From: an uncultured Gammaproteobacteria bacterium
GTDB taxonomy: Bacteria > Pseudomonadota > Gammaproteobacteria > Pseudomonadales > Porticoccaceae
Assembly: GCA_913060555.1 (NCBI GenBank)
Contig: CAJXRS010000019.1
Coordinates: forward strand, 1 to 34,852
Direction of reading: 5' to 3'
DNA length: 34,852 nucleotides
A model generated the notes under the pieces. The model saw only the letters and a list, made by a program, of their open reading frames with translations. It was not told the DNA's origin and did not search any database. The position numbers were made by a program, and so were the translations under genes. Position 1 is the stretch's first letter. Each line of letters begins with the position of its first letter. This document shows, piece by piece, positions 3,694 to 34,852 of the stretch.

Positions 3694-5628
3694 ATGCCGA
3701 GTATTTCCCTGCCCGATGGCAGCCGCCGGGAATATCCCGCGCCTGTCACTGTGGCCGAGGTCGCCGCGGATATCGGCGCCGGCCTGGCCAAGGCCGCGTT
3801 GGCCGGACGGGTCGACGGTCGCCTGGTCGATACCAGTTACCCCATCGCGGGTGATGCCGCCCTGGAGATCGTCACTGCCCGGGATTCCGAGGGCGTCGAG
3901 GTCATCCGGCACTCCTGCGCCCATCTGCTGGCGCAGGCGGTGAAGGAGCTGTTTCCCGGCGCTCAGGTGACCATAGGCCCGGTGATCGAGGACGGTTTTT
4001 ACTATGATTTCGCCTTCGATCGCGCCTTTACTCCGGAGGATTTGCAGGCCATCGAGGACCGCATGCGCGAGCTCGCGCAGGCCGATCTGCAGGTCCAGCG
4101 CCGAGAGATGCCTCGCGATGAGGCTGTCGCCCTGTTTCGCGGCATGGGCGAGGAGTACAAGGCGGAAATCATCGCCGCCATCCCGGCAGCGGAGGCGATC
4201 TCCCTCTACAGTCAGGGAGATTTCGTCGATCTGTGTCGCGGGCCCCACGTGCCCAGTACCGGTAAGATTCCTGCGTTCAAGCTCACCAAGGTCGCGGGTG
4301 CCTATTGGCGCGGTGACGCCCGCAACGCCATGCTGCAGCGGATCTATGGCACAGCCTGGCCGAACCGCAAGGAGCTCGACGCCTACCTGCATCGTCAGGC
4401 GGAGGCGGAAAAGCGCGATCATCGCCGGCTCGGCCGCCGCCTGGACTTGTTCCACATCCAGGAAGAGGCGCCGGGCATGGTGTTCTGGCACCCGCGCGGT
4501 TGGATGCTGTATACCGAGATCGAGCGCTACATGCGCGACCGGCAGCGTGCCCACGGATACCGCGAGATCCGCACCCCGCAACTGGTCGACTTCTCGCTGT
4601 GGCAGCGCTCCGGGCATGCCGACAAGTTCGGCGCAGACATGTTTTCGCTGCAGATGGATGAGCGCGCCTTCGCCATCAAGCCCATGAATTGTCCCTGCCA
4701 CGTCCAGGTGTACAATCAGGGTCTGCGCAGCTATCGTGATCTGCCGCTGCGGCTCGCCGAGTTCGGTTCCTGCCACCGCAACGAGCCTTCCGGTTCCCTG
4801 CACGGGCTGATGCGCGTGCGCGGCTTTACCCAGGACGACGCCCACATCTTCTGTACCGAGGCGCAGATTCAGGAGGAGGTGGCGAGGTTCATCGATTTTC
4901 TGCACGGCGTCTATGCGGATTTCGGTTTCGATGAGGTCATCTATCGGCTTTCGACCCGGCCCGAGCAGCGCGTCGGTTCGGATGAGATCTGGGATCGGGC
5001 CGAGCAAGCGTTGGCCGAGGCGCTGAATCACCAGGGGCTCGAGTGGGAGCTGTTGCCGGGGGAGGGCGCCTTCTACGGCCCCAAGATCGAGTTTTCGCTC
5101 AAGGACGTCCTCGGCCGGGTCTGGCAGCTGGGTACCATCCAGGTGGATTTTTCCATGCCCGAGCGCCTCGGAGCCCAATACGTGGCGGCCGATGATTCCC
5201 GCCAAGTGCCGGTGATGCTCCATCGTGCGGTGCTGGGCTCCTTCGAGCGATTCATCGGTATTCTCATCGAGCACTACGAAGGTGCCTTTCCCGCTTGGCT
5301 GGCGCCGGTGCAGGCGGTGGTGCTCAATATTACCGACCGCCAGGCGGATTACGCCAAGTCAGTGACAGAAACCTTGCAAAACAAGGGGTTCCGGGTTGAA
5401 AATGACTTGAGAAACGAGAAGATCGGCTTTAAGATTCGCGAGCACACCCTGCTCAAGACTCCCTATCTGCTGATCGTTGGAGATCGGGAGACGGAAACCC
5501 AATCGGTTGCGATTCGCACCCGTGAAGGTGAGGACCTAGGCTCTCTGAGTTTGGACCGGTTCGTTGACCTTCTCGGCGACAGCGTGCGTGAGCGCGGCAG
5601 GGGCACCAAGACAACTAGCGCGGAGTAG
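3694..5628 (+). CDS. thrS: Threonine--tRNA ligase
   Basis: This enzyme charges tRNA-Thr with threonine and edits mischarged seryl-tRNA. The 644-residue protein has an N-terminal TGS domain (about 1-61), the editing domain with HSCAH (H73, H77) and CRGPH (C181, H185), the class II catalytic core with zinc ligands C333 (MNCPCH), H384 and H510, and a C-terminal anticodon-binding domain from about residue 535. Zinc residues sit within one position of E. coli ThrRS. The ATG at 3694 gives the normal N-terminus (MPSISLPDG). Its ribosome binding site is weak (CGGGG), which fits translational control through the upstream hairpin. It heads the thrS-infC-rpmI-rplT-pheS-pheT-ihfA block; infC begins six bases after its stop. 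Confidence 0.98.
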
Positions 5629-33321: not shown

Positions 33322-33560
33322 GATGGACTCTCCTTTGCGGCCAGTGGTCGTCGAGCGAGGGCGAGCAGCCCTGAGGCCCGGTTGAATGAAGTATCCGGGG
33401 TATCTCGGGCACATCACCCCGATTCGAAGTTTGAGAGTGCGTGCCAGGTGATTGGTTCATCGTTCGGCGCTCGGCGCGTTTTCTGGACCCCGCAGCCCCG
33501 CGGCGCTACATTCGATGCATCGGACGCTGTCCAGACAGTGCGGAACCTTCGGGGGAGACG

Positions 33561-34805
33561 ATGGCGGAGTTTGTTTTTCCTCAATCCTCCAACATACCCG
33601 CCCATTCGTTCCTGACCCATTGTCGGGCCGACGAGAATCCGTTGGTGGCAGCGTTACTTGCAGAGGCGGAAGCCCACGCCCTGCCGCCCGCGCAGGCGAC
33701 AGCGCGCGCTACTCACTGGATCCAGGAGGTGCGCGCCGATGCCCGCGAACATCGGGGCCTGAATGCGCTGCTGCGCGAATATGATCTCTCCACCGCCGAA
33801 GGGGTCGCGCTCCTGTGCCTGGCCGAGGCGCTGTTGCGGGTCCCCGATGCCAACACCGCGGATCTGCTCATTCGCGACAAGCTGACCGCGCCCCACTGGG
33901 AGGCGCACCTGGGCCACAGCGATTCGCTGTTCGTCAATGCCGCCACCTGGGCGCTGCTGTTCGGCGAGCGTCTGGTGGACGTGCCCGAGCAAGGCGGGTT
34001 GCGCGGCGTATTGCATCGGTTGGCCGCCCGGCTGGGTGAGCCGGTGATCCGCGTTGCGAGCCGGCGGATGATGGCCGAGCTGGGCGAGGTCTTCGTGCTG
34101 GGAGCCGACCTGGATGAGGCGCGACGGCGCGCGGCACGGCAGGCGGACGCGGGATATCTGCATTCCTTCGATATGCTCGGCGAGGCGGCGCGCACCGCAG
34201 CCGACGCCGCGGCCTACCTGGCCGCCTACCGGGAGGCGATCGCGGCTGCGGGTGCCCTGGGCGGTGCCAGCCTGCGCGAGCGGCCGGGGGTCTCGGTCAA
34301 ACTCTCTGCACTGCACCCGCGCTATGAGTTCGCGCAGCGCGGGCGTGTGCTTGCCGAGTTGCTGCCGCGCCTGCGGGAGCTGTGCCGGGCGGCCCGGGAC
34401 GTCGGCGTCGCGCTCACCATCGACGCCGAAGAGGCCGACCGCCTGGGCCTGCAGATCGAGTTGCTGGAGGCCGTCGGCTCGGACCCCGAGCTGCGGGATT
34501 GGCCCGGTCTTGGCCTTGCGGTGCAGGCCTACCAGAAGTGCGCGCTGCCGCTGCTCGATCACCTCGCCGGTTGGGCCCGAGCGGCGGGGCGGCGGTTGCA
34601 GGTGCGGCTGGTCAAGGGCGCCTACTGGGACAGCGAAATCAAGCACGCCCAGGAGCAGGGCCTTGCCGACTACCCGGTATTCACCCGCAAGGCGGCGACG
34701 GATCTGCACTACCTGCTCTGCGCGCGGCGTTTGCTGACAGCAGCGGAGAGTTTCTATCCCCAGTTCGCCACCCACAATGCCCATACGTTGGCCGCGGTGC
34801 TGGCC
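33561..34805 (+). CDS. putA: PutA, proline dehydrogenase domain (3' end missing)
   Basis: PutA oxidises proline to glutamate in two steps, by an FAD proline dehydrogenase and an NAD-linked P5C dehydrogenase in one chain. The 415 visible residues cover the N-terminal helical arm and most of the proline dehydrogenase barrel: GVSVKLSALHPRYEFAQ, VALTIDAEEADRLGLQIELLE, GLGLAVQAYQKCALPLLD, VRLVKGAYWDSEIKHAQEQGL and FATHNAHTLAAVLA. No N-terminal ribbon-helix-helix domain precedes, so it is the non-repressor type. The start at 33561 follows GGGGGAGA. The genuine sequence stops at about 34805. Whether a P5C dehydrogenase domain follows cannot be seen, but the arm region fits bifunctional PutA. The in-frame stop at 34824-34826 is adapter, not gene. 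Confidence 0.93.
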
Positions 34806-34852
34806 CTGTCTCTTATACACATCTGACGCTGCCGACGAATAGAGAGGTGTAG
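34806..34852. other. Illumina Nextera adapter sequence left on the contig end
   Basis: Bases 34806-34824 (CTGTCTCTTATACACATCT) are the 19-bp Tn5 mosaic end. Bases 34825-34838 complete the Nextera read-1-side adapter in reverse complement. Bases 34839-34846 (ATAGAGAG) are the reverse complement of the i5 index CTCTCTAT (S502/N502), and 34847-34852 (GTGTAG) begin the P5 sequence. This is library artefact and should be trimmed. Confidence 0.97.

Follow-up and report, generated by a model that had tools for sequence, protein, structure and literature searches.

The 34,852-nucleotide stretch of DNA analysed here (the window) ends in residual Nextera sequencing adapter, which truncates the putA gene; adapter of the same kind is found at many other contig ends of the same genome, where the ends that were read share one index pair and the junctions bear a Tn5 cut-site signature. 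In the draft genome, G000, which comprises 2.95 Mb in 199 contigs with 398 contig ends, the window makes up contig C19. Its 47 terminal bases (34806-34852), up to the last base of the window, are a Nextera i5-side read-through. They begin with an exact copy of the Tn5 mosaic end used in the Nextera kit, 19 bases long (34806-34824, plus strand), followed by the rest of the i5-side arm GACGCTGCCGACGA (34825-34838, plus strand), the i5 index as read through, ATAGAGAG, which is the reverse complement of S502 CTCTCTAT (34839-34846, plus strand), and GTGTAG, the six bases with which the reverse complement of P5 opens (34847-34852, plus strand). Even with three mismatches allowed, the window has no second copy of the mosaic end, and no match to it was found in 100 dinucleotide shuffles of the window. 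An earlier reading of the sequence alone had described this end as untrimmed Nextera adapter with a readable i5 index, a description upheld by the assignment of all 47 bases. It had further labelled the final six letters as the first six bases of P5; they are indeed derived from P5, but are the reverse complement of its last six bases, as read-through expects.

Published kit sequences were in agreement with this assignment. Appendix B of PMC7589761 lists S502 as CTCTCTAT and N706 as TAGGCATG, and in its primers the P5 part ends in CTACAC directly before the index, the S502 primer reading CTACAC and then CTCTCTAT. In an excerpt of PMC6460022, the mosaic end and both arms served other authors as strings for read filtering. 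All 47 bases of the window end agree with the Nextera or Nextera XT read-through adapter (i5 side, S502), the arm and mosaic end according to the excerpt of PMC6460022 and the index and P5 end according to Appendix B of PMC7589761. The mosaic end is followed directly by the arm, and the arm by a valid kit index and then the P5/P7 complement, here that of P5. The sequence is identical to the kit adapter, and the only difference is that it has been kept, untrimmed, in an assembled contig.

The sequence-only reading had proposed an adapter screen of the contig and its sister contigs; a search for the adapter sequences found both Nextera arms on sisters, with one index pair across the readable ends. 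The mosaic end (at most one mismatch) was present in 130 copies in G000, while the same sequence written backwards, used as a control, gave 0. Relative to the 398 contig ends, about one third of the ends of this genome bear adapter. The exact i5 33-mer (mosaic end plus arm) was found in 39 copies and exact i7 arms in 70. Reading of individual ends covered 123 of the 130 copies, 7 lying outside it; 127 copies were retrieved, leaving 123 once repeats of the same end were removed. All 123 start within 54 bases of a contig end, and the same set was obtained with and without a 120-base end filter. They comprise 70 full i7 arms, 39 full i5 arms, 13 copies stopping within the mosaic end or arm and 1 mismatched i7 arm. 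Among these 123 copies, the i5 index was ATAGAGAG in 35 of 35 readable cases (C19 included) and the i7 index was TAGGCATG in 65 of 65. A single dual-indexed library, N706 plus S502, accounts for every index read, and no second, unrelated index pair was found among the readable ends of the 123 copies.

In the P5 reverse complement, longer sister ends run on as GTGTAGATCT. The longest adapter ends of the 123 read, at 54 and 53 bases, are those of contigs C11 and C84 (loci L007 and L104), which carry changes resembling read errors. The left ends of five contigs that were fetched (C4, C6, C7, C10 and C12) contained no mosaic end, as predicted by the genome-wide scan, and the exact i5 33-mer was absent from three other genomes of the same genus.

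The genomic bases beside the adapter carry the signature of Tn5 cutting. The Tn5 target consensus is given as AGNTYWRANCT in an excerpt of PMC8525568, and an excerpt of PMC9330563 describes for Nextera XT a symmetrical motif, AT-rich in the centre and with Gs and Cs on the outside. In the window, the presumed target site of Tn5 is GTGCTGGCC, which covers the last nine genomic bases ahead of the adapter (34797-34805, plus strand); it scores 5 of 7 on the consensus, a score reached by 4% of window 9-mers. Across the 123 junctions the mean score was 3.50, compared with 2.34 in a background of all window 9-mers on both strands (Mann-Whitney p 4e-24, a nominal value since these 9-mers overlap) and with 2.26 and 2.41 at internal control positions. 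Five of the seven consensus positions were enriched (p 2e-4 to 1e-9), namely C at -1 (69/123 junctions; background 0.33), R at -4 (85/123; 0.50), W at -5 (75/123; 0.34), Y at -6 (86/123; 0.50) and G at -9 (60/123; 0.33). No significant enrichment was seen across the 123 junctions for T at -7 (27/123, p 0.09) or A at -3 (28/123, p 0.06). All five enriched positions occurred together at 8 of 123 junctions versus 1.1% of the background. Since the nine flanking bases fit the target preference of Tn5, the junctions are tagmentation cut sites.

The adapter interrupts a gene for PutA (proline dehydrogenase/P5C dehydrogenase). In the longest frame, opened by a GTG, the real 5' part of putA occupies 33441-34805 on the plus strand; the ATG at 33561 is a likelier start than this GTG. 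With the adapter included, the frame spans 33441-34826 and encodes 461 amino acids. The junction falls on a codon boundary (33441 plus 455 codons gives 34806), and the terminal residues LSLIHI with their TGA stop (34806-34826, plus strand; TGA at 34824-34826) are therefore entirely adapter. The trimmed frame matches the NCBIfam model PRK11904.1 with an E value of 3.9e-156 over profile positions 13-417 of 1042, falling below the curated cut-off because it is truncated, and its match to Pfam Pro_dh ends at profile position 210 of 278. The six adapter residues shift the PRK11904.1 and Pro_dh scores by only about 2 bits. Full-length PutA has a complete proline dehydrogenase domain and a complete aldehyde dehydrogenase domain, a complement that the trimmed frame lacks.

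In all 11 relatives aligned, which are 47-55% identical to the PutA of the window, the frame runs on beyond the junction, by no fewer than 262 residues inside the loci compared, and the motif FQRLHGMG lies just past the junction point. Most PutA frames of relatives are open for 880-1332 amino acids versus 461 here. The contention that LSLIHI and its stop codon are artefacts is thus borne out by the adapter codons and by the 11 relatives that continue. The companion claim, that a false complete putA had been created, stands as far as the stop is concerned, but at 461 amino acids the frame is far below the PutA frames of relatives. A PutA match was detected in 31 of the 61 genomes of the family sample, G000 counted, and in none of the other three genomes of the genus.

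Searches of the bin for the rest of putA did not recover it. The PutA family search gave 10 places, C19 and nine with aldehyde dehydrogenase only, matching from profile position 558 on. The C-terminal 497 residues of the PutA of a relative found the same nine places at 25-34% identity, leaving the first 146 residues of the query uncovered. A search for contigs overlapping the last 406 genomic bases of C19 gave nothing beyond C19 itself and one weak match of 37 bases. Three of the nine aldehyde dehydrogenase places, on C61, C94 and C96, were checked with Pfam. Contig C61, which has adapter at its start, was considered as the other half of putA and rejected, as it carries a complete, ordinary aldehyde dehydrogenase. 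On C96 (locus L039, 1474-2373, minus strand), an open reading frame combines the opening part of a glycerophosphodiester phosphodiesterase with the C-terminal half of an aldehyde dehydrogenase and has the look of a chimeric misjoin; no mosaic end was found within it. On C94 (locus L044, 3-890, minus strand), an aldehyde dehydrogenase N-terminus is fused to a phosphate acetyl/butyryltransferase, which likewise looks like a misjoin.

Three other accounts of the contig end were weighed. The mosaic end is derived from the ends of Tn5, and the flanks show the target preference of this transposon, both of which would suit a natural Tn5 or IS50 element inserted in putA with the contig ending at its terminus. 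Set against this, the mosaic end differs from the natural outside end at 3 positions and from the natural inside end at 4, and kit arm sequence follows it in the 123 copies read, none of which enters transposon DNA. The arm, index and P5 sequence refute a natural element, and we consider it extremely improbable. A genuinely short PutA ending in LSLIHI would account for a frame that is open and closed by a stop, yet it would have to end on adapter codons, with Pro_dh broken off at 210 of 278 and in disagreement with all 11 relatives, and its probability is next to nothing.

The remaining account supposes that the contig was misbinned, so that its putA, and perhaps the whole of C19, belongs to another organism. 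The absence of a PutA match from the three other genomes of the genus is in its favor; the shared index indicates only a common library, and other organisms of the sample would share it too. Against misbinning, all three same-genus genomes have a counterpart of a DnaE-type polymerase gene of the window at 66-82% identity, and the G+C content of the window (0.659) fits that of 30 other end loci, whose mean is 0.658 (sd 0.042). Because of this gene and the typical G+C, C19 was taken as native, and misbinning is very unlikely.

The preferred explanation, which we hold with near certainty, is that a Tn5/Nextera cut in putA was followed by untrimmed read-through and that the contig ended within adapter. 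Under this explanation, Nextera-loaded Tn5 transposase cut the DNA within putA, beside base 34805; the fragment would have been shorter than the read, and the second read would probably have run through into the i5-side adapter. The reads would presumably have been trimmed incompletely, and adapter k-mers, being common to very many fragments, could then have formed a hub in the assembly graph, at which the assembler may have gone down the adapter branch, so that the contig stops within adapter.

The lengths of the adapter ends offer a view of this last step. Among the 123 ends, adapter length was 45-51 bases in 86, 40-44 in 17, 28-39 in 8, 19-27 in 10 and more than 51 in 2, with 83 clustered at 46-50 bases and 8 at 23-27. 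This pattern would suit a SPAdes-type graph built at k = 55 and 33: at k = 55, adapter branches would merge after a length of k less a few flank bases shared by chance, and the shorter group would come from k = 33. Against the graph model, ends below 40 bases number 18 of 123, and the 17 ends of 40-44 bases would need an extra cause, for example a read error that forks the graph. Further, a 48-base end at k = 55 needs about 7 flank bases in common with another adapter fragment, and the longest flank shared within the bin was mostly 2-4 bases, with just 6 of 123 cases reaching 7 or 8. With so few shared bases within the bin, the model must invoke the rest of the metagenome.

Tail length was also compared among assemblers in public collections. 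Labels were taken from contig names for 44 of the 80 rows listed (at least 119 stretches), together with L156 and L213; 38 CAJX rows were taken as SPAdes-style, some of their titles ending before the NODE name, 4 were MEGAHIT-style and 2 were contig-70, and ERZ and other names were excluded. Among the matches listed, ends of 45-51 bases made up 30 of 44 with NODE or CAJX names versus 0 of 6 with MEGAHIT- or contig-70-style names, a comparison with a tiny second group that is only suggestive. The NODE-named isolate contigs L156 and L213 carry far longer, poly-G tails.

The same adapter is widespread in public sequence. The genome collection contains the exact i5 33-mer in at least 119 stretches and the viral collection in at least 120. 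Among the matches listed, the stretch stops no more than 70 bases beyond the 33-mer in 120 of 125 cases for the former and 116 of 120 for the latter. Of the nine longer tails among the matches listed, five, judged by eye, turn into poly-A once P5 is passed and two become G-rich sequence of low complexity; the remaining two are those of L170 and L263, described below. The public i5 matches listed bear many different kit indices, five of which are named in PMC7589761. The excerpt of an FCS-GX preprint (PMC10246020) lists adaptors among common contaminants, and the tail described here is of the same kind as the adapter contamination of public assemblies addressed by VecScreen and the NCBI contamination screens. 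Its density appears high, at 130 mosaic ends per 398 contig ends, as counted in G000 alone. The translated ends LSLIHI and VYKRQ occur in a myc transposon insert, according to an excerpt of PMC4106830, and the excerpt of PMC8172020 deals with trimming methods only. A limited literature search found neither a paper on G000 nor a survey of assembled genomes for Nextera ends.

Collectively, the tail is confirmed as an ordinary artefact of a known kind, present at high density and of little biological interest, and its value lies in data hygiene. Genes at the adapter-bearing ends of G000 probably often have false tails, which would pass into protein collections; the false-tail peptides met were LSLIHI, VSYTHLTLPT and CLLYTSPSPRD. 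Trimming would remove the adapter from contig ends. There is an even chance that adapter ends could serve as labels in deposited genomes, with the index pair marking the library, the flank the cut site and the length perhaps the k of the assembler. Should this hold, such labels could trace provenance and expose contigs binned from another library.

The sequence-only reading had also warned that adapter could seed false joins. No adapter-bridged join was found in G000 among the 123 of 130 copies read, but another public record contains one. In the contig JAUCQE010000132.1 of a public metagenome-assembled genome (locus L170, about 3882-3943), adapter and part of P5 are followed by other genomic sequence, joining DNA adjacent to an alpha-amylase gene to a fragment resembling elongation factor G, the matches to which are slightly under the Pfam cut-offs (E values of 8e-6 and 5e-5). 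The false open reading frame across this adapter reads VSYTHLTLPT. In the viral contig IMGVR_UViG_3300000510_000121 (locus L263, 2141-2186), an adapter remnant lies beside an NN gap in the middle of the contig.
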